64,000 nucleotides of DNA. It comes from Tridacna crocea (taxonomy: Eukaryota; Mollusca; Bivalvia; Cardiida; Cardiidae). Shown here piece after piece: positions 1,844 through 62,241 of this stretch. Location of the stretch: the NCBI GenBank assembly GCA_943736015.1, contig OX031059.1:49487159-49551158 (forward strand), in the 5' to 3' direction. The notes beneath the pieces are model-generated. The model was not told where the DNA came from and did no database searches. It saw only the letters and a list, made by a program, of their open reading frames with translations. Numbering within the stretch: position 1 is the stretch's first letter; every line of letters starts with the position of its first letter. A program made the position numbers and the translations under genes.

Positions 1844-2734
1844 TTAACCCTTTACCTCACAAGGCATTTTTATGGTATCTCTAATTGACCCTAAATATCA
1901 GCAAGGATGAATCTGTTTCTTATGTGTATATGACACCTTTTGATAGCATAGAAAACATTGTGGCAAAAGGTGAAATTGCTCGTCACGAGCAATTTCACCT
2001 TTTGCCACAATGTTTTCTAAAGGCTCCTACAAGTAATGCGTAGAAATGAGTATCTGTAGAGTAAAGGGTTAACCCATTACCAAACAACAATATTTTAGAC
2101 TGGTCCAAATTGAAAGCACTTGCAGACAACAAAATAAAAGTAACTGAAAATTTGAAATTTGTTTTGTGAAGGGTAGAAAACATTGTGGGAAAAGGAGAAA
2201 ATGCTGGTTACCAGCATTTTCTCCTTTTCCCACACTGTTTTCAAAAGCTTTCTTTCTCAGGGGCGTCAAAAGTAGGGATTGTGTGGTAATGGGTTAACCC
2301 TTTACCATATGGAAAAAGCATTTTCAGAATACTGATGACAACTTCAGTAGGACTCAAATGGCAGACTTTTTCCTCCATATGGTAAAAAACTTTGTGGGAA
2401 AAGGAGAATTGAATATTGGTTACCAGCATCTTCTCCTTATCCCACAATGTTTTCAAATGGCTTCTTCCTCAAGGTTATTAAAAGTTGGGATTGCTTGGTA
2501 TATGGTTAACTCTTTACCAAACGATCCCTGTTTTTTACGACCCTGATATAGAAGCCTTTTGAAAACATTGTGGGAAAAGGAGAAAATGCTGGTAACCAGC
2601 ATTTTCTCCTTTTCCCAGAATGCTTTCTACTCTGCTAGAAACAAAATTCAAATTTTGAGTTACCTTTATTTTGTCGTCTGCACATGCTTCGGATTTGGAC
2701 CAGTCTAACATTTTGTCGTTTGGTAATGAGTTAA
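1844..2734. mobile_element. Chain of four TTAA-HP units sharing TTAA junctions
   Basis: Units are 1844-2072 (subfamily B, hairpin with GGCAAAAGGTGAAATTGC), 2069-2297 (A, plus), 2294-2509 (A, plus, diverged left arm) and 2506-2734 (A, minus). Each junction has a single TTAA used by both neighbours. Confidence 0.88.
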
Positions 2735-3324
2735 GCCAGTTCAAGACAAACTTAAGGCTCATCCATATGGAAAGCACTAACTGTTGCAAACAACAAAATG
2801 TGGCTTTTTATCGGAAGAAAAAACATAAAATTTTGGAATAAACCAAATTGACAGCATTTACAGATTGTTGCTAATAATTATGATAATTTCTGTAAGGGTA
2901 GAATACATTGTGATAGAAAACATTGTGGGAGTTGCAGAAAATCAGTGTTTTTTTGCCCTTCACAGACAAACTTCAATCATAATTTAGCCACATTTTATGT
3001 GGCGTCTGCTACTGCTTTGGACTAAACCAAATTGAAAGCATTTACAGACAACCAAATAGATGTTGCTCATAATTATGATAATTTCTGTAAGGGTAGAATA
3101 CAATGTGGTAGAATACATTGTGGGAATTGCAGAAAACCACAATGTTTTTTAACCCTTCACTGCTTTGAGTTCAGGGAGGTCTCATTTTTTTTTTCATTTT
3201 TCTGAAGGGGTTTTTGCTACAGGAAACTGTGGAGTGGTAAGCCTTTCATCATTCTGAGGCCCTTATAACTTTTCCTCATTCATAAACTATATAACAAGTC
3301 ATTTTTGTACAACACTAAGGGAGC
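2735..3324. other. Diverged TTAA-HP remnants and unassigned sequence
   Basis: Two imperfect repeats (about 2830-2960 and 3015-3150) share AAATTGACAGCATTTACAGA-like and GTAGAATACATTGTG stretches, so they look like a locally duplicated, decayed arm. The rest is unassigned. Confidence 0.4.
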
Positions 3325-3786
3325 TAAAGGTGGCCCTTCAGATTTTGGGACAAAAATTTTACAAAAATACAAAAAAATCATCCTTATACTCCCAAAGCCT
3401 TATAATTTTCATTCATTAAACCCCAATAGTCGAAAACCATCCGACAACTAGATAAATTAGAGATTTACATACGAAGATTCAAACATAGCGTCCGAAGTTC
3501 TAGACATTATGGAAAATAATTACATGTTTGTTATGGAATTTAATAGTCATTAGTCACATGGAAGTCACTTAACATTCCCACAATGCTTTTTTGATTTTAG
3601 CGGGAAATCTAAAAATAGCTTAAGAGGCTACGTAGCCTTTTAAGGGAATACCACCAAAAAAAAAATGTTTTTGTAATTTTATGATTCTTAATTACTGATG
3701 ATTTGTATTGTTTTTTCATATAAATTTCATTGACTTATATATTTTTTAATTTGGTGTGATCTGAAAATTCTAAATACCCACCTTTA
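3325..3786 (+). mobile_element. AAAGGTGG-ended element (K family), 462 bp
   Basis: It starts TAAAGGTGGCCCTTCAGA and ends ACCCACCTTTA, a short inverted terminal repeat. Compared with the arms at 51311-52412 it lacks about 90 internal bases. A TA or TTAA target is likely; no protein is encoded. Confidence 0.7.
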
Positions 3787-3795
3787 AGAACACAT

Positions 3796-3945
3796 TTAAC
3801 CCTTTACCAAACAAGGAGAAAATGCGGACAAATAGCATTTTCCTCTGTTCCCATGACATTGAGTACCATTCCACTCTCAAATTTCAAATTTTGAGTCATA
3901 TTTATTTTGTTGCCAGCAAATGCCTTAAATTTGGACAAGTCATCA
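3796..3945 (-). mobile_element. TTAA-HP fragment
   Basis: One end (TTAACCCTTTACC) and the TGCCAGCAAATGCC arm remain; the hairpin has decayed. Confidence 0.55.
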
Positions 3946-4001
3946 TTCAATGATATTTCCTAGTCGATACCTAGCAGTCACAAGTCAGCTGAGATAGAGG
4001 T

Positions 4002-4860
4002 TTAACTCATTACCAGACAACAATTTTTTGGCTTATCCGAATCGAAAGCATTTGCAGATGATAAAATAAGTGACTGAAAATTTGAAATTTGTTTTGTGGG
4101 TACTAGCATTTCCTCCTTTTTTCCCATGATGTTTTCTACAGGCTTCTTTCTCAGGGCCGTTAAAAGTAGGGATTGTGTGGTAATGGGTTAACCCTTTCCA
4201 AAACAACCCCTGGATTTTACCATACTGGGACAGAAGGCTTTTGAAAACAGTGTAGGAAAAGGAGAAAATGCTGTTGCATTTTCTTCTTTTCCTACAATGT
4301 TTACTACCCTATCATAGATAAGAATCATCATTTGCATTACATTTGATTCTTTTTCTGTAAACACATTTGATTTGGTCTAGCCTAAAATTTAGTCGCTTGA
4401 CAAAGGGTTAACCCTTTACCACACAATGACAACTTTTAACGACCCTGGGAAAGAAGCCTTTTCAAAACATTTTGGGAAAAGGAGAAAATGCTGGTAACCA
4501 GCATTTTCTCCTTTTTCCAAAATGTTTTTTACTCCATCAAATAATGATTGCACTGTTTGAGTCAAACTGAAATGGTCGTCCGCAAATGCTTTCAATTTAG
4601 ACAAGGCTTAAATTTTGTTGTCTGGTAAAGGGTTAACCCTTTCCCAAACAATCCCTGGTTTTTACAGGTCTGGAATAATGGCCTTTTGAAAACATTGTTG
4701 GAAAAGGAGAAAATGCTGGTAACCAGCATTTTGTCCTTTCCCATAATGTTTTTTATCCTATCATAGACAAAAATCATCTTTTCAGCAAGAGTTGAATTGT
4801 CGTCTGCAAATGCTTTCAATTTAGTCTAGTCCAAAAGTTTGTTGTTTTGGAAAGGGTTAA
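4002..4860. mobile_element. Second chain of four TTAA-HP units
   Basis: Units are 4002-4191 (plus), 4188-4411 (minus), 4408-4636 (minus) and 4633-4860 (minus), each pair sharing one TTAA. In the second unit the hairpin apex is shortened to GCTGTTGC. Confidence 0.87.
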
Positions 4861-4964
4861 ACAGATAATGAAAACATCATTATTGTCCTTGGAATTTTTT
4901 CAACAACCTACTGATACATTCTAGACAACATACCTTCCAACTACAGGTAATGCGATACTACACA

Positions 4965-5065
4965 ATGCCAACTTACTGAACCTGGGATAAAACCTTTTGA
5001 AAACATTGTAGGAAAAGGAGGAAATGCTGGTAACCACACAGAAATTGGCATCTGCAAATGCTTTT
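4965..5065 (-). mobile_element. TTAA-HP fragment
   Basis: Left hairpin arm GAAAACATTGTAGG through GGTAACC is present; the right arm is missing and the sequence jumps to the GCATCTGCAAATGC arm. Confidence 0.5.
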
Positions 5066-5185
5066 GACACTTATCCTGCTAAGTAACTAAAATTAAATTT
5101 TCAATTCGATAGTAAAAACTCAAAACTTTATATTTCAAAGGTATGTTTCCGAGAAAAATATCTCTAGATCAGACAGCATAGGTCC

Positions 5186-5220
5186 AAGATCAGACTGCAC
5201 ATTCTGTGCAGTCTGATCTT
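5186..5220. repeat. Perfect 16-bp-arm palindrome
   Basis: AAGATCAGACTGCACA and its exact complement flank a TTC loop. Related AATCAGACTGCACTG wording recurs near 30035, so it belongs to a dispersed repeat. Confidence 0.6.
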
Positions 5221-5345: not shown

Positions 5346-5574
5346 TTAACTCTTTACCACACAAGAAAATTTTAGACTGCTCCAAATTGAAAGCATTTGC
5401 AGACAACAAAATAAAGGCGATTCAAAAATAGAAATTTGTTCTGGGAAGGGTAGAAAACACTGTGGGAAAAGGAGAAAATGCTGGTTACCAGCATTTTCTC
5501 CTTTTCCCACAGTGTTTTCAAAAGGCTTCTTTCTCAGGGGCATCAAAAGTAGGGATTGTGTGGTAATGGGTTAA
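5346..5574 (+). mobile_element. TTAA-HP copy, intact
   Basis: Both TTAA ends are present. The hairpin carries the paired variant CACTGTGGG / CCCACAGTG on both arms. Confidence 0.88.
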
Positions 5575-6556: not shown

Positions 6557-6629
6557 TTAAGTGCTGGATAATACAAGCATGTCATCCTTTTCTCTCAGTA
6601 TGTTCAAATAATCTCTCCTTAAGGGTCAT

Positions 6630-7083
6630 TTAACCCATTACCACACAATCCCTACTTTTGACGCCCCTGAGAAAGAAGGCTTTTGAAAACCCTGTGGGAA
6701 AAGGAGAAAATGCTGGTAACCAGCATTTTCTGCTTTTCCCACAGTGTTTTCTACCCTTTCCAGAACAAATTTCAATTTTTCAGTCACATTTATTTTGTCG
6801 TCTGCAAATGCTTTCAATTTGGACCAGTCTAAATTTTTCTCGTGTGGTAATGGGTTAACTGTTTACTCCATAGATACTCATTTCGATGCATTGCTTGTAG
6901 GAGCCTTTGGAAAACATTGAGGCAAAAGGTGAAATTGCTCGTAACGAGCAATTTCACCTTCTGCCACAATGTTTTCTACACTATCAAAAGGTGTCATATA
7001 CACATAAGAAATGGCTTTATCCTTGCTGTTATTTAGGGTCAATTAGAGATACCACAGAAATGCCTTATGGGGTAAAGGGTTAA
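6630..7083 (-). mobile_element. Two TTAA-HP units sharing a TTAA (A then B)
   Basis: 6630-6858 is subfamily A with ends CCATTACCACAC / GTGTGGTAATGG. 6855-7083 is subfamily B with hairpin GGCAAAAGGTGAAATTGC and the B-specific arm GTGTCATATACACATAAG. Confidence 0.87.
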
Positions 7084-10629: not shown

Positions 10630-11107
10630 AAGTACATGTCCCAAACAAGCCCTGGCTTTTACAAGTCTTCAGAAAACACTGTGGGAAAAGGAGAAATTGC
10701 TTGTAAAGAGCAATTTCTCCTTTTCCCACAGTGTTTTCTAGCCTTTCGGAAAACTTTATCCCATTCTCATCAAATTCAAATTGTCATCTGCAAACACTGA
10801 GTTTGGGGCAGTCTAAATTTGTCATTTGGGAAAGGGTTAACTCTTTACCAACCGACAAAATATTGGACTAGTCCAAATTCAAATCATTTGCAGACTACAA
10901 AATAAATGTGAATCAAAAATTAAAATTTGATTTGGAAAGCATAGTAAATATTGTGGGAAAAGGAGAAAATACTGACTTTCTCCTTTTCCCATGTAGTTTT
11001 TAAAAGCTTTCTATGGGTTACCAGCATTTTCTGCTGTTCCCACTATGTTTTCAAAAGGCTTCTTTTCCAGGAGCTTCAAAAGTCGGCACTGTGTGGTAAA
11101 GGGTTAA
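10630..11107. mobile_element. Two TTAA-HP units, the second with a duplicated right arm
   Basis: 10630-10840 is subfamily C (GAGAAATTGC, CACTGTGGG / CCCACAGTG). 10837-11107 (plus) carries the right hairpin arm twice, near 10976-11012 and again 11018-11070, after a second GGTTACCAGC. Confidence 0.8.
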
Positions 11108-23922: not shown

Positions 23923-24151
23923 TTAACCTTTTCCCAAACAACATAATCTTAGACTGATCCAAATTCAAAGCATATGCAGACCGCAAAATAAGGTCAACAC
24001 AAAAATAGAAACTTGACTTTAGAAGAGCAGAAAGCACTGTGGGAAAAGGAGAAAATGCTGGTGACCAGCATTTTCTCCTTTTCCCACAGTGGTTTTATAA
24101 GTCTTCTTCCTGTGGGTCGTTAAAACCAGGGATTGTTTGGTAAAGGGTTAA
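23923..24151 (+). mobile_element. TTAA-HP copy
   Basis: It carries the paired variant GCACTGTGGG / CCCACAGTG and a GTGACC centre; the TTAA ends are intact. Confidence 0.86.
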
Positions 24152-31900: not shown

Positions 31901-34900
31901 TTGTTTGGTAAAGAGTTAAGACTACTAGTTGAGAGAGCTTCTGATTTATCAGTTTTCTTCCATGATTATCACATGACTCAATGATACATGTTGTCTCAAT
32001 GGAAAGTGCACCCAGCTTTACCCTTTTACCACACATAAAAATTATAAATTGGGGGTATTGAAGGTACTTAAAAACAAGAACTTAAATGTTTTTCAAGCTA
32101 TAGTATTTGTTCTTGAAAAGGTAGAAAACATAGTGGGAAAAGGAGAAAATGATGGTTACCAGTATTTTCTTCTTTTCTCACAGTGTTTTCACAAGGCTTC
32201 TTTCTCAGGGTCATTAAAACTTGGGATTGTGTGAAAGAGTGTTATTTGATTCTTTGCAAGTTAAGTAAATAGAAGATGCGCCACTCGTGAAAATATTACC
32301 GATGGTGTTCACGAGATGAAATAAATTTCGATCTTACACCGAAAAAAACAAATATTCTATTTATTTTATGCTTTTAACCCTTTCTGGGAGGAGCTTTATC
32401 AAAATTCAGTACAGTTCTTTTCCCTTATTCCCCGTGGCATACCCCTCCCGCATAGCAATGTTACATCAAGCGCGTGAAATGTAAGGTATATGACGTCATA
32501 TTTCCCATCTGGTTGTTAGGCACGCGCAATTTACCTAGGCAACAAGAACGTGAAAATCGGTATTTTCACTGGTGGTACCAGTGTAAGATCGAAAAATATT
32601 TTCACTGCCATTTCTCCATATCCTACCGGAAAGCATGAAATAATGGTCTATAACACCAAAAAATACTGCGCTAGTGCATGTAACATATTTCTTCTTTTTA
32701 GGCACAGAAATCGAGCCACAAGGAAGACCCTGTGGTAAAGGTCTGACAGTGCAGGCAGCTTTGGAGCTTGGTCTTAAACCAGGAACTGCCATCAGTGTAG
32801 GAATTATAGATGCTCACTGTGGAACCATAGGTGGGTGGAAAAAAGTCACAGAATGGATTTTGTATTTTCTCTCAGCATTCAGACTTTTCTTTATACATAT
32901 TGTGTATCTGATTAATCTGTTTTAGGTCAACTAACCATAGGACAGCATACGTTGGTCATGGCCCGATGTCAGTAGAGCATCTGCCCCTGCGGGCATCCCT
33001 GTGTACTTCAGTCTGAGTATCCATGTGTGCCTAAAGTTTCATTTCAAACATTGTCTTCTCTGATACTACCCATCCATTGTGGATCAAACTTCACAGAAAA
33101 GATCCTGCCTTCTTCAAAATTTCTTTACAGAATTTCATTCTATTGAAAATTCTTGTTGCCATAGCAACAAAACTAAACAAATATTGAAAATCTTTTAACT
33201 CCTTACCAAACCACAAGACTTAAGGTTTGTTCAAATCAAAAGCATTCACAGACGACAAAACAAAAGTCACTGAAAATTTGTAATTTGTTTTGTGATGGGT
33301 AGGAAACATTGTGGCAAAAGGAGAAAATGCTGGTTACTAGCATTTTCTCCTTTTCCCACAATGTTTTCTAAAGGCTTCTTTGTCAGGGTCGTCAAAAGTA
33401 GGGTTTGTGTGGTAATGGGTTAAAAAATTTCATGTCTGAAACCATAGTATCTAATGCTACCAAATTTTCCTTGTGGCTTTTATTTAACAGACATCTAAAG
33501 ATTTTGTTTGTCATAACTTTTGGGTCAAAATTGACCCTGCCATGGGACTCACAAGTTTCAAAATTGTCTTGTACCTCACCATAAAGCTTAAGGCTATTTG
33601 CATTTGACTTCATCTTGTTGACCATTTGTAATAGCATTCACATCAGAGCTTTAGTGTAAAAGCTTGCCCAACCTCAGAGGTTAGTGAAAACTACAAAATC
33701 TTTTTGATCCTATTTGTAAGGCCTTGAGCTACCAAATTTGGCAGACCACTTCATATAGTAGAAGTCTACCAAGATTGTCCCATTTATAACCTTGGGTGAA
33801 AATTGACCCCGCCATGGGGTTCAAAAGTTTTACATTGACCCAGAAACTAAATACTAAAAAACATTTGTCTGGTCCCTAAGTGTAGGGTCTGGGTTTTTCA
33901 AAATTTGTATTTAGCGTCATCTAGTGTATCTGGTGCAATAGTGTTCAAACTATAGCCTTGAGGACAGCATGTTTTACAAAGGCTTAGACAGTGAGAACTT
34001 AAAATATCTTCCTGTAGAACAATATCACTAAAGCTTATATAATTATAACACTGATGATTAATGTATGGTTTGTTGACATATACCTCCCTAGATTATTAAA
34101 CTATAATGTTACATGATTGGTGTTGGGTATTCAGGTTAGAGAAAGGCCTCTAACTCTTTACCAAACGACAAAATTGTAGCCCAGTCCAAATTGAATGCAT
34201 TTGTGGATAACAGCCTAAGTATGGCTCAAAAATTGAAATTTGTCTTGGGAAAGGTTACCAGCATTTTCTCCTTTTCCTACAATGTTTTCTAAAGGCTTCT
34301 TTCCCACTGTCATTAAAAGTATGGATTGTGTGGTAAAGAGTTAGAAAAATTGTAGGAATATGAGGAAATGCTGGTAACCAGTATTTTCTCCTTTTCCTAC
34401 AATGTTTTCACTGAAATACAAATTCAACCATTTGACCCAGATTGCATTTCTTATATTCAGCTGCTTTGAATTTACAATGGTGTAAGGTTTTGTAGTTGAG
34501 TAAGTTAAATGTGTAGATACAAAATATGCAGTCCGATCTTAACCTTGCACCATCTGCTCTAAATTGTAACCAGTTGTAGCCAAATGAGGTATGTATGCTC
34601 TCTGTCTCTAGCTGTCTGTCTCTGTGTTTCTCTTGCTTTTTTAACTGATTATATATCTTATATCCAGGTTGTATAGGATGTGTTCCAAAAGACCCAAGTT
34701 TTCAGTTACCTCCCTTACAGAGCAGACTGGCAATGATCAGTGGTACATCAACATGTCACATGGCTGTAAGTAAAAATGCACACCTCGTCAACAGATCACA
34801 ACAGATGGCAAAGTCTACTATACCTTAACCCATTACTATACAATCCCTACTTTTGGCGACCCTGAGAAAGAAGCCTTTAGAAAACATTGTGGGAAAAGGA

Positions 34901-37900
34901 GGAAATGTTGGTAACCAGCTTTACTCCTTTTCCCAGTGTTTTCTACCTTTCACAAAACAAATTTCAAATTTTCAGAAACTTTTATTTAGTCGTCCGCAAA
35001 TGCTTTAGTAATAAGTTAAGCATTCTTATATGGCCATTTCAATGTGGTTTAAAATTAAGGAGTTTATCTTGAGAGGATATCCAACACTGTAGGACAGGAG
35101 CAGTCTTACGCTCTCTCTCACATTATTGTCTAAAGCCTTCTGCCTCAGGGTCCAAAAACAATGGGATCTCAGGTTGTGAAAAGTATTTTGTTCTTTAATT
35201 CTTTATCAAACGATGGTATTTGGTTGTCCAAATTGCAAGTGTTTGCAGACGACATTATAAATGTGATTAAAAAATTGAAACTTGACTTTAGAAGAGTAGA
35301 AAGCATTGTAGGAAAAGGGAAAAAATGCTGGTTACCAGCATTTTCTCCCTTACCCACAATATATTCAGAAGACTTCTTCATCTGGGTCATAAAAACCAAA
35401 GATTGTTTGGTAAAGGGTTAACCCCTGTTTATGAAGAATTTTGTTGTTTTTAGGTTTTTTTCTGAAAATTTTAGAAATTTGTTTATTACAAAATTTGTTG
35501 TTCTCATGTTGTTGATCAAAGATGTTAGACAAGGAGCCAGGCAAACAAATTACAGAAAGGGAAGAAGAACAACAGCGTTTAACCCTTAACTGGACAACAA
35601 AATTTAAGGCTCGTCCAAATTGAAAACATTTGCAGAGGGCAATTTCAATATGGCTCCGACAGTACAATAATTTTTTGATGGAGTAGAAAACATTTTGGGA
35701 AAAGGAGAAAATGCTGGTTACCAGCATTTTCTCCTTTTCCCAAAATATTTTTAAAAGGCCTCTTTCACAGGGTTGTTAAAAGTCGTCATTGTGTGGTAAA
35801 AGGTTAACAAAAAGCTTTTTGAAGATTTTACAATCCATCTAGATTTGGATGTGTGGCATATACACTTTGCATGTTTTCTTCAGTTGAGTGACAAGTGCAT
35901 ATTTGTGCCTGGAGTATGGGGTCCATTTTGGTCCACTGTTCTACCTGGATTGTGGACAACTGAAGGAGGACAAAGTGCTGCAGGCAAACTGGTACACTCA
36001 CTGTATTTTGTCACAGTCCTTTGAAATTCCATTGATCCATCATAGAATACTGAAATTTCTCTTGGTCAATCATTTAACCCTTTACCACACAATCATGAGT
36101 TTTATCAACCCTTGGAGAGGAGCCTTTTGAAAACATTGTTGGAAAAGCGGAAAATGCTGGTAATATTGAATAAAGAGGGAATTGCTAATGTGCTATTTAT
36201 AGTAACAGTGGCCCTTTATGAAAAATTCTTTATCCCATGATAGACCAATGGAATTTCAGAGGCTTTTATCCCTTTACCAGAGGACTAAATTTTAGCTCTG
36301 TCGAAACTTAAAGCATTTGCAGATGACAATTTCAATGTTACTCAAATGGTGCAATTATTTATTGATTAGGTAGAAAACATCATGGGGAAAAGGAGAAAAT
36401 TTTGGTTACCAGCATTTTCTCCTTTTCCGAAAGTGTTTTCAAAAAGGCTTCTTTTTCCAGGGGCGTCAAAAGTAGGGATTGAGGGGTAATTGGATAATTT
36501 TGTTAACCCATTTCCAAACAAACTTCTGTAAAGAAAAACCTGAGGAAGATGACTTTGGAAAACATTGCAGGAAATACTAAAATGCTGGTAAACAGCATTT
36601 TCTCCTTTTCCTGTAATCTTTTTTGCTCTTTTTAAAGCCAAACCTGATCATTTGGTCAACATTTGGTTTGTCATCTGTAAATATTTTGGATTTGTATGGA
36701 TCAAAATCTTGTCATGTGGTAAAAAGTACTGAGAAATCTTAGACTGGTCCAAACCACAAGCATCGGCAGATGACAAGTCGAATGTGACTCAAAGTATTTT
36801 TGGAAGGGTAGATTATCAGTATGTTGCTGATTACCAGCATTTTAAGCCATTTTGTCCTTTTTCCACAATTGTTTTCAAAAGCTTTCTTTCATAGGGTCTT
36901 TAAAAGATGGGATTGTGCAGCTCAGTTGTATTTATCAAGAGGGAAAGTATACATTTTCACAGCAGATTTTGTAATTGACATACCTGTAAAAACAGCCTCT
37001 GCTGTACAATGCTTTGGAGGATACCCTCACATTAATAGTAGACTGAAATCAACACTGAATGTAGAATCTCATTGCAAGTACAGAGCGAATAGCCTTTTTG
37101 GATGGTATAGATCAAGATCAGAGCATAGAAAACAAGTAACCTGATTGAAAATCTACATCCACCCATCGAGACATTTGCCAAAGGTGACTTAGTCTCTGCA
37201 AATTGCTAGTCTTACATAACAGTACCTTTACCAAACTCTGTACCACATGCTAAAATATTTGACTGGACTGAACTTAAAGCATTTTTAGATGACAAATTAT
37301 ATGTTGCTAAACTGGTGATTTCTATCTTTAATAGGGTAGAAAACATTGTGGGAAAAGGAGAAAATGCTGGTTACCAGCATTTTCTCCTTTTTCCTCTATG
37401 TTTTAAAAAGGCTTTTCTTTCAGGATTGTTAAAAGTCGGGGTTGTGTGGAAAAGAGTTAAATTGTCGTTTTGCATTTATTTAGCACTCAAAGGAAGACTG
37501 TGGAAGCGTTTATGTGAAGAAAAGAGAAAAAGATTTAACTACAGAATTTTTAGCTCACCTGAGCACAAAGTGCTCAGAGTGAGCTATTGTGATCACTCAC
37601 CGTCCGTCGGCGTCCGTCGTCCGTCCGTCCGTCCGTCCGTCCGTCCGTCCGTCCGTCCACATTTTCTTGTTTACACTCTAGCATCTACAAATATCAAGCA
37701 ATCAGGACCAAACTCGGTCAAAGTATATATGACCATAAGATCTCGGATGAGTTCGATTTTGGGTCTTATCAGACCAGAACATCTGGAGTTATTTGCCCTT
37801 GAATTAGAAAAATTGCTGAATTTCACATTGTTTACATTCTAGCATCTACAAATATCAACCAATCAGCACCAAACTTGGTCAAAGTATATATGACCATAAG

Positions 37901-40900
37901 ATCTTGGATGAGTTCGATTTTGGGTCTAATCAGACTAGAACATCTGGAGTTATTTGCCCTTGAATTAGAAAAATTGCTGTATTTCACTTTGTTTACACTC
38001 TAGCATCTACAAATATCAACCAATCAGCACCAAACTTGGTCAAAGTATGTATGACTATAAGATCTCGGATGAGTTCGATTTTGGGTCTAATCGGATCAGA
38101 ACATCTGGAGTTATATGCCCTTGAATTAGAAAAATTGCTGTATTTCACTTTGTTTACACTCTAGCGTCTACAAATATCTGCCAATCAGCACCAAACTTGA
38201 TCAAAATATATATGACCATAAGATCTCGGCTGAGTTCGATCATGGGCCTAATCAGACCAGAACATCTGGATTTATTTGCCCTTGAATTAGAAAAATTGCT
38301 ATACTGCACTTTGTTTACTCTCTAGCATCTACAATTTTTAACCAATCAGCTGTAAACTTGGCCAAAATATATATAACCATAAGATCTTGGATGAGTGTAA
38401 TTATGGGTGTAATCAGATGCAAACAACTGGAGTTATTTGCCCTTGAATTAGAAAGTTCTTTGTAATAGTTCTTAATCCAGAGCATAACTTTGTCATCTCC
38501 AGTCTGATTGACTTGAAACTTGACATTTGTGTTTGTTGCAATAATGCAGAGTTCAATGTGAAAGTTCCATAACTCTACCTTATACTGTCTGTAAGTTATT
38601 TCCCTCTGATTGTCATTTTTACAGCATTTTCTGCTCGTCTGGAATATAACTTTGTCATCTATAGCCTGAACATCTTCAAATTTAATATGCATGATCGTTG
38701 TATATTTATGGAGTGCAGTGCACAAGAACCATAACTCTTCCTAGCTTGAATTTTGAGTTATTTCCCCTTTGAACTTCATATTCATAGCATTTCTTGCTTG
38801 TCCGGAGCAAAATTTTGTCATCTTAAGTAGGAATGACTTGAAATTGGGTATGATTATTTGGTGCAATATTTGGAAGTGCAGTGCACAAGAATTGTAACTG
38901 TAATTCGTGCTGTCGAGTTATTTCCCTTTTAATGTCATTTTTACAGCATTTAGTGCCTGTCTGGAATATAACTAAACTTTGTCATCTCAAGTCAGAATGA
39001 CTTCAAACTTGGTATGCATGTTTGTTGCAGTATTACAGAGTACAGTGCGCAAGAACAATAACTCTGCCTAGTGCGAACTTTATGTAATTCCACATTGATC
39101 TTCATTCTTACAGTATTTCTTGCTTGTCTGGAATGGAACCTCAAAGTCTCAAGTCAAATTGCGACAAATCGCAGCTCTTGTTTCATTTTCATTTAACCTT
39201 GAACCTTGATATTTGGTATTTATCTTTATTGTAGACTTTTGCTGCTTGGTACTCAGGTGAGCGATATAGGACCATCATGGTCCTCTTGTTTCAATTTTCA
39301 CAGATAGATTTTGTGGTAACAACGCATTCTGCTTATCCAGTGGCCAAGGAAAAGGCAGTTAAAAAGTGAGTAGAGTTATTATCATTAATAACCCATATTC
39401 TGTCTAGTCTGAAAAAGCCAAGAGCGATGTAGCATGTAACCCTTTACCAAACGACAATATATTAGGTTTGTCCAAATCGAAAGCATTAATTTTGCAGATG
39501 ACAAAATAAAACTGACTGAAAATTTTCACACCGGTTAAAATTGAAAGCATTTGCATACAACAAGTTAAATGATGGAATTTGTCTTTGATATGGTAGGAAA
39601 CAGTCTAGGAAAAGGAGAAAATGCTGGTCACCATATTATTTTCACAAGGATTCTTTCTCAGGGTCTATAACACTTTACCAAAGGACAAAAATTTAGATTT
39701 GTCCAAATTGAAAGCACTTGCAGACGACAAAATAAATGTAACCGAAAAATTGAAATTTGTTTCTAGCAGGGTAGAAAATATTGTGGGAAAAGGAGAAAAT
39801 GCTGGTTACCAGCATTTTCTCCTTTTCCCTCAATGTTTTCAAAAGGCTACTATTCCAGATACGTAAAAACCAGGGATTGTTTGGGAAAGGGTTAAAACTT
39901 AGATTTTGTGATAAGGGGGTTTATGTTGTGGTTGACAGTGTATGGTCTTTTTTTGTGCCTTCTCCATGCACAGAAATATCAGTATCTATGAGTACCTACA
40001 TGAGCTTCTAGTCAGGAAAAGTAGCCAGATGGAATTGTCTAGTCTTTCAAAACTTACCACAGATTTCCACATGTGGCCTGATTTCCATGGTAACAGATCA
40101 CCCTTAGCTGATCATACTCTTACAGGAATGGTTAGTAGTTTGTATTATTGGTTTCTTTGTTTCCATTAACCCTTTTCCAAACAACAAATTTTGAACCATT
40201 CCAAACCGAAAGAGTTTGCAGATGACAATTTTAGGTTTTGAGAAAATTGCAGAAAGTTCTCAAAAAGGGTAGAAAACACTGTGGAAAAAGGAGAAATTGC
40301 TTGTTACGAGCAATTTCTCCTTTTCCCACAAAGACTTGTACTGCAGACACGTAAAAAGCAGGGCTTGTTTTGGAAAAGGTTAACATCAGTTAGCCGAGTC
40401 CTAGTGGCTCACTCCATAGTGCTCAAGACTTGAGAACGGGAGGTTGCTGGTACCATGCTAGCTTTGCCACTTTCTTTTGCAGGATTGATGATAGTTATTG
40501 CAACATGATTTATTCCTCTCTCACTGCTTGATATTGTTTTGACAGTGGTTGTGTGGGAAAGCAGCTGGTAGTTTGGAACAAGTACTGTGTGGGATAATTG
40601 TAAAAGAAACTCTAAGAAAGCATAGAAGAGTGCACTGGCTGCTGCGATATAACTGAAATAGTGTTGAAAATGGCATTAAGCGCCATATAATCAGTCAATT
40701 TGTATCAAGTAGATTAGGGATTGTCCTTGGCTTAGTGGTTAAGGTCTAAGTTTTCTGCTCTTGAAATACAGGTTTGATTCCACCTGTCACACTTTTTGCT
40801 TTTGAATATCCATGGGCAAGTTATTTCAGAGATTTTCAGCAGATTTTAACCTTATTTTAAAAATAAGCAGTTGCTAAAAAGATTATTTTTCTATATGATA

Positions 40901-43900
40901 GCGTAGAAAACATTGTGGGAAAAGGAGAAAATGCTGGTTACCAGCATTTTCTCCTTTTCCCACAATGTTTTCTATAGGCTTCTATTCCTGACCCGTAAAA
41001 ACCAGGGATTGTTTGGAAAAGGGTTAAGCTATGCATTGAAAAGTTCTTATACCCAAAATGTATCTGAAAACTGTAGAAATCTGTAAGAATAGAAGATCTC
41101 ACATGAGTGTTTCTGTACGTGTTATCATCTAAAATAAATTATGACAATGATAAAGTCATATAATGCAACCCTTACCATGCTTCATATATATTTTGGCTAA
41201 TAAGTTTAATACAAATGGTAATAATTGAACACAAATTTGAGATTCTATTTATCACATAAAACGAAATTAATGACAAGTATGTTTAATTTGTGTGTGTATG
41301 TGTTTTTAGATAAGTGGGTTGACATTACAGTCAGATGAAGATGGTCTGGCCCAAGTCTACCTAGCTGCTGTGCAAGCTTTGGCTGTAAGTGTGGATTTTT
41401 TTATTGATTCATTCAATTGAGATCTACTTATTTCTGAAATCATCACATGTTTGGACACACATTCTTGACTGCTACCACAGAATGAAGTACTAAAGTACAT
41501 TCCCTGCAATGTTTCTTTTTCTGATTAACAAAATTTTCTTAACTTTGTAGATCTTTATCCAGTTTGTTCCAAACACTTCAGTGTTTAATATATTGAAACT
41601 GTTAACCTGTTACCACACACCAGAATTTTAGACCTATCCAACTTAAAAGCATTTGCAGACGATGATTTTGTAGTGGCTCAAATGATGCAATTTTTTTTTT
41701 AATAGAGTAGAAAACTTTGCGGGAAAAGGAGAAAATGCTGGTTACCAGCATTTTCTCCTTTTCCCACAAAGTGTTCAAAAGGCCTCTCCCTCAGGGTTGT
41801 TAAAAGTGGTATTTGTGTGGGAAAGGGTTAAACAGTGTTGAAAGTAATACAAGTCCCATGTTTGAGTAACATTTCATTTGTCTTCTGCAGATGCTTTAAG
41901 CCACACATTCCCTACTTTTGATGCCCTTGAGAAATATACTTTTAGAAAACATTGTGGGAAAAGGAGAAAATGCTGGTAACCAGCATTTTCTCCTTTTTCC
42001 ACAATGTTTTCTACCCTTCACGAATCAAACTTCAAATTTTCAGTCACTTTTATTTTGTTGTTTGCAAATGCTTTCGATTTGGACAAACCTGAAATTTTGT
42101 CGTTTGGTAATGAGTTAAAATTGACAATTTCACAATTCGGTTGTGATGGTAAAGAGTTGATCACGTGTGCAGGTATGGAGATAATGAGTTATTGGACATT
42201 TTGTTACCTGCTACCTCAAGACTTTTAACTTTGTATTTTCCAGTATGGTACAAAACATATTATAGAAGAGATGAACAAATGTGGTCACAGACTATCTGTC
42301 TTATTCATTTGTGGTGGATTAAGGAAGAACAAACTCTACATACAAATGCATGCAGATATAACAGGTATGATATTGAAGTTGGGTAAAATGCTGTTAGTAA
42401 AATAACAAAGTAGTTCGGGGGTGGGTTGTAGCGTAGAACCAAGATCAGTCTGCAAAATCTGTGATCTTGATCTTTGTTTTCTGCAGAAGCAATTGTAAAG
42501 TGTTGTAGTTTTAGAAATAACCAAAGCAGGAGAGAAGGCTTACTAACGTTTTCTTCTATCTCACTATGGTTTCAAAAGTTTTTTCCGTAGGTTTGTAACC
42601 TTTAATAAAAGGTTAGAGGCTTTTGGAAAGGACAAACTAATTATGACACAAAAATTGATTCATAGCTCCAGATAAGAGGGAGTGGTGGTTTTCAATATTC
42701 ATTATTTTTCTTCAAAACCCTATGTTGTTGGAGCTCATTAGAATCATAAGTGGAGATTTATAATTTTTCAATTTTGAAATCAGAATCACTCCCACTATCT
42801 CGAGCTCTGTTGATTATTGCATTTTTTGGGGAAGAAAACTTGGTTGTAAAAGGAGAAAATGCTTGTTACCGGCATTTTCTTTTTTTTTAAACAATCCTTT
42901 CAAAAGGCTTTTTTTCTCAGGGTTATTACAACTAGGAATTGTGTTGTAAAGGTTTAAGTTATATTTCTAGGTTTGCCAGTGGTTGTGCCAGATGAGGAAG
43001 AATCAGTGTTGTTAGGGGCAGCCATATTGGCTGCTACTGCAGCCAAGCAATACCCAACAATAGAGGTATACCTTTTAGGTGTTTTTAGTCTTTTTTTTAA
43101 AACTTCATTCAGATCCACTGTTTTATATCATTTAAGAAGAAAGCTGACCAATTAAATGCATGAAAACTCCTGTGCCATATGTTCAATGAGTGTTCCATGT
43201 ATGTAATATTCTGCCTGTATGCTTATTCGATATAATACTGTACTTGTATTTCCTCCTGAGAGACAGCTATTTCTGAAATGACATTTTATTCGTGTAAAAA
43301 TGCTGGCATTAAATAGAATTTTGTTAACTCTTTACCACTGGACAATATTTTAGACTTGTCCAAATAGAAAGCACCTGCAGACAGCTATTTGATTGTGAGT
43401 GAAAATTTAAAGTTTGTTATGGGAAGGATAGAAAACATTGTGGGAAAAGGAGAAAATGCTGGTTAGCAGCATTTTCTCCTTTTCCCATAATGTTTTCAAA
43501 AGGGTTTAGTCCTAGGGTCCTTAAAAGTAGGGATTGTGTGGTAAAGGGTTAAATCTACCCTTCCCAGACTAAATTTCAATATTTCTGTCACAATTATTTT
43601 GTTGTCTGTAAGTGCTTTCAATTTGGATCGGTCTAAAATTTTCTTGTGAGGTAAAGAGTGAAGAGAGAACTGATAGAGTAAGTAATTGGAGGTTTCAGTT
43701 ATTTTAGAAATATTCTAACATCAGTTTAATGTTACTCTTCCAAATTTCTTGTTGATATAGGACAGCATGAAGCACATGTGTGGTTCTGGGGAAGTTACCA
43801 AACCAAGTGAATTAGATAAAGGGTTTGTAGTACAATGTTATTTTGAGCTTGGCTGTTTTGAAAGCAAATATGGTATTATTATACTGCAAAGAAGTTTCTC

Positions 43901-55314: not shown

Positions 55315-58300
55315 GTAAGATTGATTTGAGATAAATGTGGATACCGGTATTGTTTTGACAACAGATTTGCGCTGTCAAATTACCTGACCTTGATTATCTG
55401 TTACCTTTCTTCCACTTTACTGTAAATATGCTATCGTGTCAATTTTGGTTTAATTGTAGAGAGAGTGATTAAGAGACTCATATTCATTCAAGTATGAGGT
55501 TTTATTGCAATTTAATCTACTTTTTTAGTATTGAAAATCAGCTTTAAAGAGATAAATAAAAAAATATGTAGACTATGACAAAACAGTAACACTAGTAGTA
55601 GTAATGGTAACGGGCTTGTTCGTCCCTGGGCTTGTTCGTCCGAGCTTGTTCGTCTGGGCTTGTTCGTCCCAACTGATTTCTCGTTGATCCGGGCTTGTTC
55701 GTCCCAACTTATGTATCTGCCAACATAATATTATTAACCAAAGTTGATTATAGCTGTACAAAAAAGATCCCCATCACCTTTATAGAAGAAACCAAAGTGA
55801 AAGAAATGTGGTATCCATGGTCGTGACGTAGAGCATCGGCCTCGTAACCAAAATGTCCTGAGTTTGATTCCCGGGAGCGGGTGTCAACTTAAGGATTTAT
55901 CATCAGCTCACACATTCGGCGCGAGCAGTGGTGTAGTTCCCAGGAAGCAGAATCGAGAGAGATTAGTATAACTTGTCAGAACTTGTTTCTCAATCGATGT
56001 AAAATAGATATTTTTAAACTAAACTAAGTAAAAGAAAAAAATATCAATGGTGTCATTTCCATCGTTACATTTAGAGAAGAAACTAAAGTAAATGAGAAAT
56101 GCCAATGACGTCATCCCCAACATGGTATTTAGGAAAGATATTAAATAAATCATATATACATACATGTACATGAAGATATGGATTTTCAGTAAATATTGTA
56201 ATGTAAGGCCGTTAGTCTAGGCAAGAGGCGATGCAGAGACATTGTGTGTTAAAGTCTTGAATCATTAATTCAGTTTCTGTTCTGTTCAAAATACGACTTC
56301 AAGTGAGGCAAAAACAAAGCATAAGTAAGTTTTGTTCAAAGTACTTGCGTGTTAAAAATAAAAGTTTACTTTGGAGGGCACATAGCGATTATATTTCAAT
56401 AAGATCGAAACGGTGGTGCGGGACGAACAAGCCAGGACGAATGAGCCCGGGTGAATAAGCCCAAGGATGAACTGGTTTTGGGACGAACAAGCCCGGAACC
56501 CTAGTAATAGCTGCAGGGTGAACTGCATTTTAGCAAACATATATAGGTAACGGGCTTGTTCGTCCCTGGGCTTGTTCGCCCGGGCTTGTTCGTCAGGGCT
56601 CATTCGTCCGGGCTTGTTCGTCCCAACTGATTTCACGTTGATCTGGGCTTGTTCGCCCCAACTTATGTATCTGCCAACCAAAGTGTCCATAGTGAATTCT
56701 TCACTGATTTTGAAAAGGTTGTAACTGCGCATTATTTCCTTCCATTTTACTCAACCAAAGTTAATTATAACTGTACAAAAAAGATCCCCATCACGTTTAT
56801 AGAAGAAACCAAAGTGAAAGAAATGTGGTATCTGTGGTCGTGACGTTCCCAGGAAGCAGAATTGAGAGAGATTAGTATAACTTGTCAGAACTTGTTTCTC
56901 AATCGATGTAAAATAAATATTTTTAAACTAAACTAAGTAAAAGAAAAAATCAATGGTGTCATTCCCATCGTTACATTTAGAGAAGAAAGTAAAGTAAATG
57001 AAAAATGCCAATGACGTCATCCCCAACATGGTATTTAGGAAAGAAATTAAATAAATCATATATACATACATGTACATGTACATATGGATTTTCAATAAAT
57101 ATTGTCATGTAAGGCCGCTAGTCTAGGCAATAGGTGATGCAGAGACATTGTAAGTTAGTCTTGAATCATTAATTCAGTTTCTGTTCTATTCAAAATACGA
57201 ATTTGGTTCCATTCGATGGCACTCAGCTTCGAGATCGACTGGTAGTCTTTACCAAACCTCATTTAATTTGTGTTTAAAACTATTTTCAGTTTCACCTAAA
57301 ATTAGATCCTCATACAGGGTAATCCAATCTTCAATGACTCTTTTTCATCTTTGGGAGCATCAAATTCAATTTTTTCTCAGGTTGTTGAAAAGCCTTTGGT
57401 CGTGTCTCCTGGTGTTATATGGTTTGTTCCTTGATAACAGTTTATTTTTGTCAACTGTGAAAGCCTTGGTGAATTTTATATGTACTGTTGTTTTCCTCCT
57501 ATATTCTAATGTAAGCAGACGAAGAATCCTGAAAGCAATTGTTGGAGGAAGATCTTTAATTTTTGGTATTAATTTTGTAGCACTTTGTGGAACATTTTCA
57601 ATTTTGAGTAATCTGTCTTTTTTAAATTTTATTGCCAAGGTTAAACTACCATAAATCTAAAATCTGCCATACAAGAATGGGCTACTTTAAACAAGCCCAA
57701 CCAGGCCAAGGTTGGTAGTTTATATATATTTGAACGAAATACTGTGTTAATATTCTTTAGTATTAAATCCCAAAGGTTTAAAGGTGTGTATTTAGAATTT
57801 TCACATGTCACCAAATTAAAAAATATATATGTCACTGAAGTTTATATGAAAAAACAATACAAATCATCAGTAATTAAGAATCATAAAGTTACCAAAAAAA
57901 AAAATTTTTTTTGGTGGTATTCCCTTAAAAGGCTACGTAGCCTCTTAAGCTATTTTTAAATTTCCCACCAAAATCAGAAAACCATTGTGGGAATGTTAAG
58001 TGAATTGCACATGACTAATGACTATTAAATTCCATAACATAACAAACATGTAATTATTTTCCATGATGTCTAGAACTTTGGATGCTATGTTTGAAGCTTC
58101 GTCTGTATATTTCCGGTATGTAAATGAGCGAGTTGCTCATGTAAAAATAGACCGTGCAGAGTTCCCGATCACGCAAAATCGTGCGTGAAACACGTATAAA
58201 TGAAATAAAACACGTACAAAATTGCAAACCTATACGTGAAATCACGCACAAAAAATAAAGAAGAAGATCGAACAAAAATCAAGCAGGAAACGCTTGCATA

Positions 58301-61300
58301 GAACGGCTCACGTAAGTGCGATTTTCGGAAAATATAAATCATCAGAAAAATTTTGGATTTCCAGCTTTCTATTTTTAGAACATTTACATGGTCGGCGAAC
58401 TCGGTCTTTATCATCGCGATCAATTATATTGCAGACTGGGACCCGTTTGTTTCCAAAAAAGTCCTTAATTCAGCTCCCCTCTATTTAACGCAGTCGGTAA
58501 AAAGCCTTTTGTCGATGTCAGCGTCTTTCGTCTGTAAACCCACATATTGAGAATAGCTCGGAAATATACTATAGACGCTTTCAGGTTTCAGAATTCGGGT
58601 TCACGTAAGCAAGCAAGGTACACTAGTTGTAGAACCATTCAAAATTTAGTAAAGAGAGTTCATTTATTGCAGAAATACTTATCCATAGTTAAACGGACAC
58701 GAAAAAATGATCGGTCCAAAAAACGCGGAAACCCATGACACAACAAAATGCCCCTTTTTACATTGTCCGATCACAGTCACTTCATACTGTTTTTTCAGCT
58801 TTTAATGGGTGTAAGCTGTAAATTTCCACAAATATCTGGATATAACACTTTTTTGGTGCAAATCATCAGTATGGATTGCTTTGAGAATCATTATTGTCAT
58901 ACCCTCAAATATGAAATCTAGCTGCCCCCCCCCCCCCTTTCCAGGTTTACAACTTAAGGGGTAAGTGTACCCCAGAAATAAAAAGCTAGTAGGAACATTG
59001 CATATTGAATACAGGAGTTTTCAGTCAGAATTCGACAATGATTAATGTAGATAAGGCATGTGGAAAGATGAGCATATAAACTACTAGTTTGCCAAACAAT
59101 TCTTTAAGTGTCAATTACATTTAAAAATGTTCATTTACATACTAGATCTATATGATTGTTCTGCATTGGATCAAAAATGAGGCATTAAGTAAACAATTTA
59201 GAATTGAGGGCATACTAGTTTCACTCTGAATTCGTACCCCCATTTTTTTTCTTATACCCCCATTTTTCATTTGTAGGGGGTACAAAACCCCCAAGTAAAA
59301 TTTTCAGTGGAAACACTGCCGTGTTTCCCTTCAGTGTTGACCTGGGCTGTAGTAAATCTCTAATTTATCTAGTTGTCGGATGGTTTTCGACTACTGGGGT
59401 TTAATGAATGGAAATCATAAGGCTTTGGGAGTATAAGAATGATTTTTTTGCATTTTTGTAAACTTTTCGTCCAAAAATCTGAAGGGCCACCTTTAATGGA
59501 TAATGCTTTTAACTCTTTACCACACAATCCCTATTTTTGACGCCCCTAAGGAAGAAGCCTTTTGAAAAAATTATGGGAAAAGGAGAAAATGCTGGTAACC
59601 AGCATTTTCTCCTTTTCCCACAAAGTTTTCTACCCTATCAAAGCAAAATAGCACCATTTGAGCCACTTTGAAATTGTCGTCTGCAAATGCTTCCAATCAT
59701 GATAGGTCTAAAATTTTTCTGTGTGGTAATGGATTAAAAAAGTCTTTGGTGGGAAAAACAGAAAATTAATGCTGATGAACAGCATAATTATTTACTTTTT
59801 CTTGCCTTGTTTAGCCATTATGTCAAAGGCAATTTCTGTGCTTTTGAACTGGAAAAATTCCAAAGTTTTGTCATTTGATAGAGAATCAAACAACCTTATA
59901 TGAGCACTTCAAATAACATTTTCATGTTTTATATCTTACAGACAGACTGTACTTCGCTACACTGCGAACAAGGCCGAGATCTTCAGCACACACCCATTAT
60001 TTCTGTATTGATGATGAGCTTGTATACGAGAAGTAAGTTTGAGAAATTTGACAGAAAACAAAAATATTATTTTGGTAGAAAAAGAGAATTAGGTTGAAGC
60101 CTCAATGGCGGAAGATTTTAAAAAGAATTTTGCAGATAAGTATCAGTAATAGATAGAAGCTGAAGACGAAAGAGTAGCTACATGTACATGTAGGTAGCTG
60201 GGAGAGAACAGTTAACCCATTACCACACAATCCCTACTTTTGACACTACTGAAGAAGAAGCCTTTAGAAAACATTGTGGTTAGCAGCATTTTCTCCTTTT
60301 CCCACAATGTTTTCTACCCTTCGCAAAACAAATTTCAAATTTTCAATCACTTTTATTTTGTTTTACCTGCAAATACTTTCAATTTGGACAAGCCTAAAAT
60401 ACTGTTGTTTGGTATGAGTACTGTTAACTTTTTAAATCCTTGTCTAAAGTCAGGAAAACAGGATTCTGAAGAAGAGACTTTATGAAATACATGTATATCA
60501 TACAATTGATGAACTAGGTTTGTAATCTAAAGGTAAAAGTGTTTACCTTAATGCTCTCATTTTATTTTAAGAATTACATTTCCATTATTTCGTTAATTTA
60601 TCTTTATCCTGCATGAGTTACTTTAAGTGTATTATTTTGGAGAGAGTAGGTCAAGATCAGTCTATGCATGCATGCTGTCTGATGTTGGTTGTATGGAACA
60701 GTTCTTGGCCTGTGTTGCTATTAAACCTTATAGGGCTGAATAAACCAAACACTTTTTGTTTAGAAATAAATCCCAAATAATTGCAGTTTTAAATTAGCTT
60801 TTTTCCCCCATGATGTCTAGTAAAGCAGATAGTGTTGACTTGTCTTGAACAAAGATTGGACTGCACTTTGATCTTGATCTAAACAGGCTGCAAAGGCATT
60901 AATTTATAGTTGGGAAAGGCACATATAGGTTTTAATGTTGCAAATGTGCACTGTCCCATTTAATCCATTACCACACAATCCCTAAATCGCAGCTTTAGGG
61001 GTTGCTTTTTTCTCCAAAAAGGGCAGGCAGTAAAGGAACTTAATCATTTAATACATGTACTAGCCAAAATCTTTGTACAAATCACACAAATAAGATCAAT
61101 TAACTCTTTACCAAACAATCCCTGATTTTTACAACCCTGAGAAAAAAGCCCTTTGATAACATTGTGGGAAAAGGAGAAAATGCTGTTTTCCAGCATTAAA
61201 TTTTCTCCCTTTTGCACAATATTTTCTACCCTTCTAGAAACAAATTTCAATTTCTTAACCAAGAGAGATTAGTATAAATTGTAAGAACTTGTTTCTCAAT

Positions 61301-61577
61301 CGATGTAAAGTAAATATGTTTTTAAAAACTAAATAAAACTGATTTCTGAGTTATGTTTATTTTTGTCATCAGCAAGTGCTTTCAGTTTCGACCAGTCTAA
61401 AATTTTGTTGTTGGTATATGGTTAAGCAAGGGATGAGCCAATAAATTTGCCAAAAGTCTTCTTGATTGTGATGATTAATTACTTTTTTTTTTCTCTTTAA
61501 GTTTTTATGCCGATTTTGGACCTCTTAACTTGGCTATGCTGTACAGATATTGCTGTAAATTAAATAAGAAATTAAAG
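55263..61577 (+). CDS. CDC14: CDC14 dual-specificity phosphatase, 5' part (three coding exons, continues past the window)
   Basis: The three exons join into 73 residues: [38 protein letters not shown] with [10 protein letters not shown], and [19 protein letters not shown] with LNKKLK. This aligns almost residue for residue with the start of human CDC14A/B ([39 protein letters not shown]). It is the N-terminal DSP-like A domain. CDC14 removes proline-directed phosphates and acts in mitotic exit, cytokinesis and cilia (family knowledge). The catalytic HCKAGLGRTG part lies beyond the window. Both introns are GT-AG. Intron 1 (4.6 kb) holds a tandem duplication, a LINE tail and an interrupted AAAGGTGG element; intron 2 holds TTAA-HP copies. 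Whether this is CDC14A- or B-like cannot be told; invertebrates usually have one gene. Confidence 0.92.
55598..57200 (+). repeat. Tandem duplication in CDC14 intron 1
   Basis: Copy 1 is about 55598-56300 and copy 2 about 56545-57200. Both run from GGTAACGGGCTTGTTCGTCC to TTAATTCAGTTTCTGTTC with few differences. Copy 1 has about 110 extra bases containing a tRNA-like SINE head; copy 2 has about 70 bases missing from copy 1. Each begins with a GGGCTTGTTCGTCC minisatellite (five to six units). An inverted run of the same unit (56418-56505) lies between them. Confidence 0.72.
55810..56015 (+). repeat. tRNA-headed SINE within duplication copy 1
   Basis: GACGTAGAGCATCGGCC and GAGTTTGATTCCCGG are pol III-like boxes; the tail contains GATTAGTATAACTTGTCAG and CTCAATCGATGTAAAAT, shared with 56860-56930 and 61256-61341. 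Confidence 0.5.
57256..57640 (-). mobile_element. LINE 3' coding end, CR1/Jockey-like, degraded
   Basis: Minus-strand text encodes [45 protein letters not shown] and, in another frame, [15 protein letters not shown] then stop. This is the familiar LINE C-terminus (QRRATKLIPE..TLEYRR..NSFKNRLDKFW). The frame changes at least once, so it is dead. Confidence 0.75.
57779..59495 (-). mobile_element. K element interrupted by a 1.16 kb insertion
   Basis: The K part is 57779-58156 plus 59319-59495, about 555 bp, matching the arms at 51311-52412. The break falls inside GACCGTGTTTCCC. Confidence 0.78.
58157..59318. mobile_element. Unclassified insertion with CCGTG duplication
   Basis: CCGTG flanks both sides (58152-58156 and 59319-59323). 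The ends CAGAGTTCCC and GGAAACACTG are imperfect inverted repeats. It has ACACGTA-rich text near the left, a C-run at 58926 and two copies of TACCCCCATTTTT near 59235. It encodes nothing recognisable. Confidence 0.6.
59509..59737 (-). mobile_element. TTAA-HP copy, CDC14 intron 1
   Basis: Both TTAA ends are intact and the hairpin nearly perfect apart from AATTATGGG / CCCACAAAG. Confidence 0.85.
59942..60032 (+). CDS. CDC14: CDC14 coding exon 2
   Basis: It follows ATCTTACAG and ends before GTAAGT in phase 2. It encodes [20 protein letters not shown] then [10 protein letters not shown]. Confidence 0.94.
60212..60427 (-). mobile_element. TTAA-HP copy, CDC14 intron 2
   Basis: The left inner hairpin arm is deleted (CATTGTGG then TTAGCAGC); the right end is damaged. 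Confidence 0.78.
60428..61099. other. CDC14 intron 2, mostly unassigned
   Basis: A left-end fragment of TTAA-HP (CCATTACCACACAATCCC) sits at 60964-60985. Otherwise nothing was seen. Confidence 0.4.
61100..61425 (-). mobile_element. TTAA-HP copy with a SINE tail inserted
   Basis: The host unit is split at 61256-61341 by an 86-bp SINE tail (GATTAGTATAAATTG, CTCAATCGATGTAAAGT). The flanks carry ATTTCT on both sides, a 6-bp duplication. Confidence 0.78.
61502..61577 (+). CDS. CDC14: CDC14 coding exon 3
   Basis: It follows CTCTTTAAG and ends before GTAAGC in phase 0. It encodes [20 protein letters not shown] then NKKLK. Confidence 0.94.
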
Positions 61578-61626
61578 GTAAGCAAGATCATTTTTGTTGA
61601 CCTCTTACACAATCATTAACCCCTAC

Positions 61627-61720
61627 ACTCTTTACCACACAATCCCGACTTTTAAGGACCCTGAGAAATAAGCGTATGGAAAACATTGTGGGAAAAGGAG
61701 AAAAAGCTGGTAACCATTTT
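61627..61720 (-). mobile_element. TTAA-HP left half, after CDC14 exon 3
   Basis: CTCTTTACCACACAATCCCG through the left hairpin arm to GGTAACC; the rest is lost. Confidence 0.7.
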
Positions 61721-61808
61721 TTGTTCGAGTGGTTTAACATCAGTTGTTGTTTTGCATGTTTGTAAAAAAATGTCAACAAATACCAAAAATTCCTGTGCAT
61801 TGAAGGCT

Positions 61809-62241
61809 TTAACCCATTACCTCACAATCCCTACTTTTGATGCCCCTGAGAAAGGAGCCTTTTGAAAACACTGTGGGAAAAGGAGAAAATGCTGGTGACC
61901 AGCATTTTCTCCTTTTCCCACAGTGTTTTCTACTCTTCCCAGAACAAATTTCAATTTGTCACCTTTATTTTGTCGTCTGCAAATGCTTTCAATTTGAACC
62001 AGTCTAAAATGTTGTCGTTTGGTAATGAGTTAAACTTAAAGCTAACAAAAATAGACACAGAAATTCAGTACAAAACACAAGGAATTTCTAATGTGTATAT
62101 GACACCTTTTGATAGCCTAGAAAACATTGTGGCAAAAGGTGAAATTGCTTGTCACGAGCAATTTCACCTTTTGCTACAATGTTTTCCAAAGGCTCCTACA
62201 AGCATTGCATAGAAATGAGTGTCTATGGAGTAAAGGGTTAA
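61809..62241. mobile_element. TTAA-HP copy A and a truncated copy B
   Basis: 61809-62033 (minus) has the paired CACTGTGGG / CCCACAGTG stem. 62085-62241 is subfamily B, lacking its left third. Confidence 0.84.

Follow-up and report, generated by a model that had tools for sequence, protein, structure and literature searches.

Changes inherited by spreading lineages of an abundant TTAA-flanked element in Tridacna crocea nearly always fall on both arms of its central hairpin

The window analyzed here is a 64,000-nucleotide stretch of the genome of the bivalve Tridacna crocea (GenBank assembly GCA_943736015.1, contig OX031059.1, positions 49,487,159 to 49,551,158 of the forward strand), taken from an assembly of 1.05 Gb in 31 contigs. 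It harbors numerous hairpin cores, which we found to be the centers of short elements of about 229 bp that are flanked by TTAA and resemble miniature inverted-repeat transposable elements (MITEs). The elements start with TTAACCC(T/A)TTACC and end with GGTAAAGGGTTAA or close variants, and their consensus ends, TTAAC(C/T)C...GGGTTAA, include CCC...GGG terminal inverted repeats, as in MITEs of the piggyBac superfamily. TTAA was present at both ends of 176 out of 236 full-length copies, at one end of 53, and at neither end of seven; the TTAA at 2069-2072 is common to two abutting elements.

The element is by no means specific to this locus. Matches to its profiles take up 33% of the window; in 40 kb of random sequence drawn from 20 places in the genome, 15 of which contain it, they take up 24%. 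Core matches at E<=1 numbered 107 in the window (74 of them near full length) and 49 in the random 40 kb, from which small sample we extrapolate a genome total on the order of a million cores. Most long palindromes with a short loop in the DNA examined (206 of 223) fall within these elements, four cores folded as DNA at -27 to -39 kcal/mol compared with about -5 to -7 for shuffled sequences, and the 86-base region around one B core (window 1945-2030) recurs exactly in at least 23 genomic places among 40 candidates scored. This is, then, a short non-autonomous element, very common in the genome, with a central hairpin. Its target and ends fit a piggyBac-like MITE, piggyBac being the TTAA superfamily against which the fit was judged. 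TTAA elements of the Kolobok type, which are mobilized by a Kolobok transposase, were also considered. Two of our loci, L009 and L039, were duplicates of the window itself and were later excluded, reducing the set from 417 to 403 cores. They were left out of the TTAA count above and are still included in the consensus ends, the coverage, the random core matches, the flank-collected set, the family consensus comparison and its chance calculation, the first shuffle, and the center-base counts.

The copies divide into families A, A2, B, C, and a small family D, which have the hairpin in common and differ in their flanks. Between consensus sequences, the flanks differ by 34% (A-C), 60% (A-B), and 58% (B-C), and the 66 arm bases by 9%, 12%, and 9%, respectively. 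The arm differences amount to three pairs for A-C, four for A-B, and three for B-C, every one of them Watson-Crick matched and none G.T, as the earlier note on this DNA had proposed for its subfamilies; the B and C cores it quoted, as well as CACTGTGGG/CCCACAGTG and CATTTTGGG/CCCAAAAT on both arms, lie where it had placed them (Table 1). Under independent placement, the chance that all consensus differences would be paired is 2e-6 for three pairs and 9e-8 for four. The differences define five diagnostic pairs, at alignment columns 112/164, 118/158, 125/151, 130/146, and 135/141; the other 28 of the 33 pairs are identical across the A, B, and C consensus sequences. Among 352 deduplicated copies with all ten diagnostic letters, 209 keep all five pairs, and 205 of those fall into five recurring combinations. 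Twelve of the 352 combine the arms of two families, and in 11 these are A and A2. The diagnostic pairs are spaced 5-7 bases apart (columns 112, 118, 125, 130, and 135), which may be chance. Four of the five diagnostic changes are complement swaps, a type that makes up 221 of 931 terminal changes; a post hoc calculation by hand, on which we do not rely, gives a chance of about 0.013 for four or more swaps in five.

Table 1. Elements and hairpin cores in the window (column numbers refer to the core alignment)
Feature	Positions	Strand	Pairs	Remarks
Complete A2 element, 229 bp	5346..5574	+		TTAA to TTAA
A2 core of the 5346 element	5453..5519	+	33/33	CACTGTGGG/CCCACAGTG on both arms
B element, 229 bp	1844..2072	+		joint TTAA with next element
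B core	1951..2017	+	33/33	
A core in abutting element	2176..2242	+	32/33	
B core	6910..6976	-	31/33	
B core	62120..62186	+	31/33	
C core	10672..10738	-	31/33	
C-type core, damaged	40269..40333	+	23/25 alignable	
D-type core	63434..63500	-	29/33	T-A at 112 and C-type inner pairs
A2 core	24030..24096	+	31/33	CACTGTGGG/CCCACAGTG on both arms
A2 core	61864..61930	-	33/33	CACTGTGGG/CCCACAGTG on both arms
A core	40906..40972	+	33/33	
A core	35686..35752	+		matched T-A at 114/162; CATTTTGGG/CCCAAAAT on both arms
A core	4463..4529	-		matched T-A at 114/162 as at 35686; close flank relative of 35686
A core	59564..59630	-		T.T mismatch at 111/165
A core	41710..41776	+		matched T-A at 111/165
A core	33302..33368	+		isolated G>C on the left arm, unrelated change on the right

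To count changes as events, we used a tree of 300 copies built from the flanks only. Of the 937 events on terminal branches, 875 were single changes, 37 were matched, and 25 were unmatched doubles; branches with two to five descendants carried 70, two, and three, respectively; and branches with six or more descendants carried eight single and eight matched changes. We further tested 125 arm variants with at least four carriers, in 331 copies, for whether they track flank lineages. Eleven do so, ten of which make up the five matched pairs, one variant per arm. A change passed on within a spreading lineage thus nearly always has its partner on the other arm, and private changes are mostly on a single arm. 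The matching therefore belongs to the spreading lineages rather than to resident copies. The single-arm state at 33310-33360, which the earlier note had suggested as a possible intermediate, belongs to an A copy that has one of B's four differences, and it looks like a private mutation rather than a step from A to B.

Matched changes also occur privately more often than expected. With duplicates removed, we counted 37 private matched changes against 24.1 expected (p 0.001), and 29 against 20.3 (p 0.022) when the five diagnostic pairs were removed as well; an initial stratified shuffle of 305 copies (31 against 23.4, p 0.06) had been read as showing no excess, a conclusion since dropped. In 111 clean copies, that is, with two to five arm changes and using site-specific rates, matched pairs numbered 16 against 3.6 expected, 12 of the 16 being in loci fetched by target, and unmatched doubles numbered four against 4.6. 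Matched doubles in clean copies are mostly inherited at the one pair that we read in depth, 128/148.

The abundance of the element allowed us to examine single pairs by counting exact matches to 67-base cores (center base T) across the whole assembly, where perfect A cores occur 26,428 times. At 128/148, left-only variants occur 31 times, right-only variants 32 times, and matched variants 46 times, for which independence predicts 0.04. We read the flanks of 20 of the 46 matched and 20 of the 31 left-only copies: 19 of the matched copies belong to one flank lineage, and 18 of the left-only copies to other lineages. The remaining matched copy, L101, lies in the main A lineage, where its nearest copies have the ordinary A-T pair; the other two left-only copies, L117 and L118, lie in the matched lineage and are either single-arm steps or later losses. 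These reads indicate that the matched double founded a lineage and that equally common single-arm copies are scattered. At 111/165, left-only T.T cores number 1,104, right-only cores 406, and matched T-A cores 155 against 17 expected, and the abundance of T.T implies that a mismatch at this seventh pair is tolerated. For the T-A copy at 41710, both of the closest flank neighbors (0.19 and 0.21) are T.T copies, which makes it look like a mismatch that was later compensated; the other T-A copy sampled, L087, has no close relative. Amplification contributes to the fold excesses at both pairs, which should not be taken as numbers of independent events.

The arms are constrained in sequence as well as in pairing. 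We also gathered elements solely by their flanks. Of 362 flank pairs, 295 had 55-95 bases between them, the median proportion of paired stem positions being 86%. Between random copies of 288 such elements, the arms diverge by 13%, the flanks by 32-34%, and the terminal 20 bases by 18%. On trees built from one flank, the ratio of internal to terminal changes is 0.10 for the arms versus 0.28 and 0.25 for the opposite flank, with odds ratios of 0.36 and 0.40 (p < 1e-17). Arms thus change less than flanks on the branches that lead to new copies. The claim of the earlier note that structure and not sequence is kept is therefore upheld only in its first half: lineage changes are matched, yet 28 of 33 pairs are identical between families, and arms differ by 9-12% where flanks differ by 34-60%.

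We propose that an intact DNA palindrome, partly sequence-specific, favors mobilization, and that compensated copies found families (we put the probability at roughly 0.62). The hairpin would be a cis signal for mobilization. Presumably read by the transposition machinery, the palindrome might act either in extruded form, as a hairpin or cruciform, or within the duplex, as a long dyad-symmetric site. A change on one arm would usually lower the chance that a copy becomes a source, and a matching second change would restore source status, so that the copy could found a subfamily; the matched pairs observed would be such founders, multiplied. Where a position tolerates either base, the two arms change together, which speaks for pairing rather than for two separate half-sites, although a changed protein specificity could have that effect as well. 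As to how the doubles arose, the T.T lineage favors two steps, and recurrence or exchange may explain L101.

Several observations weigh against this proposal. The eleventh lineage-following variant is an unmatched 111 A>T opposite T, and its 1,104 T.T carriers are otherwise perfect copies. Among small flank clusters of six to seven members with unmatched consensus states, only this variant passed the lineage test; an A.C state at 117/159, seen by eye in about seven B copies, failed it. Copies with six to nine arm changes show no excess of matched pairs (six against 5.8). Few events lie behind each diagnostic pair, and the covariation check suggested by the earlier note gave a weak result, passing for three of the five: in a tree-based, R-scape-like test with our own script, E was about 0.02-0.04 for 130/146, 135/141, and 112/164, and about 1 for 118/158 and 125/151. 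Diagnostic columns that are not partners correlate equally well (maximum G 274, versus 257 at the strongest true pair), since every one of these columns follows the families. The strong evidence is thus the census of lineage-level changes rather than per-pair covariation. The terminal repeats have internal-to-terminal ratios of 0.28 and 0.23, without the low ratio of the arms, and a tree built from the arms reverses the order (arms 0.33, flanks 0.23-0.25), since a tree fits its own sites. Finally, none of the seven piggyBac transposase (PF13843) loci that we read has the ends of the element, and we identified no binding protein for the hairpin. Across the genome, PF13843 gives 118 matches, many of them open and several equal-scoring, as if these genes had recently multiplied. 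The transposase loci L091 and L094 have TTAACCCATTTATGCC and TTAACCCTTTATATAC ends, with a likeness to the element confined to the first bases. Hairpin matches beside a transposase-like gene at L090 and in L095 were considered in the search for a partner and look like ordinary old copies at ambient density.

The paired changes could alternatively stem from arm-to-arm copying, in which fold-back or template switching during transposition or replication turns one mutation into a matched pair in a single step. The doubles exceed independence at 128/148 (46 versus 0.04) and at 111/165 (155 versus 17), amplification inflating both; the 128/148 double occurs once in 20 in a different flank lineage; the swaps at four of five diagnostic pairs would need a mismatch stage if made in two steps; and clean copies have their excess of matched doubles. 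However, copying keeps arms alike without slowing divergence between families, so that some sequence constraint seems needed, and the T-A copy at 41710, nearest to T.T copies, appears two-step. The T.T and A.C lineages contradict any obligate form of copying. Some template switches leave flipped loop centers, and these show no excess either: the center base is A in 18 of 300 clearly oriented copies, and terminal T>A changes at the center (10), although as many as at the highest arm site, are within the range of the flanks, so hairpin flips are not supported. We consider copying unlikely overall. Of the two causes named in the earlier note, selection and arm-to-arm copying, selection on source copies is favored; there is no need to invoke copying within resident copies, and the doubles themselves may have arisen by copying. 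A combined scenario, in which a fold-back step lets one arm template the other within one transposition and hairpin integrity, more than the ends, picks the sources among about a million copies, seems to us quite improbable.

Selection might instead act on an RNA hairpin, through transcript stability or small RNAs, as a long perfect stem would fold as RNA too. We regard this as very unlikely: the three main family consensus sequences contain no G.U pair, four of five changes are swaps rather than transitions along a wobble path, and the window has no Rfam match at the gathering score. DNA is favored as the selected form on these grounds. Pure shared ancestry would assign the hairpin no role, a few founders with paired differences having drifted to high copy number. 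The few founding events are in line with it, as is the correlation of diagnostic columns off pairs as much as on pairs. Yet independent substitutions rarely fall as complementary pairs, under drift single-arm lineages should appear as often as their frequency dictates whereas one of 11 lineage-structured variants is of this kind, and the arms are constrained relative to the flanks. The earlier note had named two findings that would speak against its own claim: mostly unpaired substitutions, and matched pairs no commoner than shared ancestry of a few master copies predicts. Unpaired changes do dominate (875 of 937 terminal pair events). Shared ancestry explains why many copies carry one pair, but neither the both-arm change in the founder nor the single unmatched variant among 11, so matched pairs are commoner than it predicts. 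We view pure shared ancestry as largely refuted and give it hardly any weight.

Other features of the window and the sampled loci were also recorded. At 62881-63331 lies an inverted repeat whose arms, each 224 nt long and separated by 3 nt, are 96% complementary; the random locus L069 has related arms. A second, rarer family of palindromic elements, with arms near GTAAGTAACACAACTTCTGATTGGCTAAACC, occurs in L016, L022, L031, L058, and L080, and its L016 copy has changes on both arms. Tandem arrays at 443-1153, 12136-12640, and 37667-38454 consist of three to five copies each of units of about 165, 167, and 161 bases, and a 14-base unit, CGGGCTTGTTCGTC, forms two arrays (55611-55669 and 56551-56623) about 900 bases apart. 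The longest open frame in the window (52689-53552, 287 amino acids) and three other frames had no Pfam match at E 0.01.

The element is short, gene-less, and targeted to TTAA, with ends that obey the CCC...GGG rule of piggyBac-superfamily MITEs. A conserved central palindrome of 67 bp is, to our knowledge, no known feature of such MITEs. Members of this group include Pokey mPok1 and mPok2 of Daphnia, as described in PMC4912750. In piggyBac and piggyBat, the cysteine-rich domains of the transposase are described as binding palindromes at the ends, two monomers on the two halves (PMC11707139); unlike the palindrome here, which is 67 bp long and central, those are 19 bp or imperfect and lie near the ends. 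A survey of bivalve transposons reports abundant MITEs, with no mention of this structure in its available text (PMC10294476). The nearest published behavior appears to be that of REPINs, REP doublets described as mobilized in bacteria by RAYT transposases (PMC3116915, PMC8266576), in whose hairpins compensatory changes are said to be common (PMC3116915). By these accounts, they too are short non-autonomous elements whose mobile unit forms a hairpin, a likeness in behavior only: REPINs are described as bacterial, with single-strand HUH-type transposases and conserved 16-mers at both ends, whereas the present element occupies a eukaryote-sized genome, uses TTAA targets, and has a central palindrome with conserved sequence. 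The literature searched, which excluded most subscription papers and any repeat database, described no eukaryotic element in this way.

If the proposed role of the palindrome is true, internal structure, and not the ends alone, would decide which copies of a DNA-transposon derivative multiply. With 26,428 identical perfect hairpins and their single-arm and double variants in one genome, counting copies can reveal what each mismatch costs, and whether palindromes stay matched by compensatory selection or by copying between arms, a long-standing question, turns into a matter of census.

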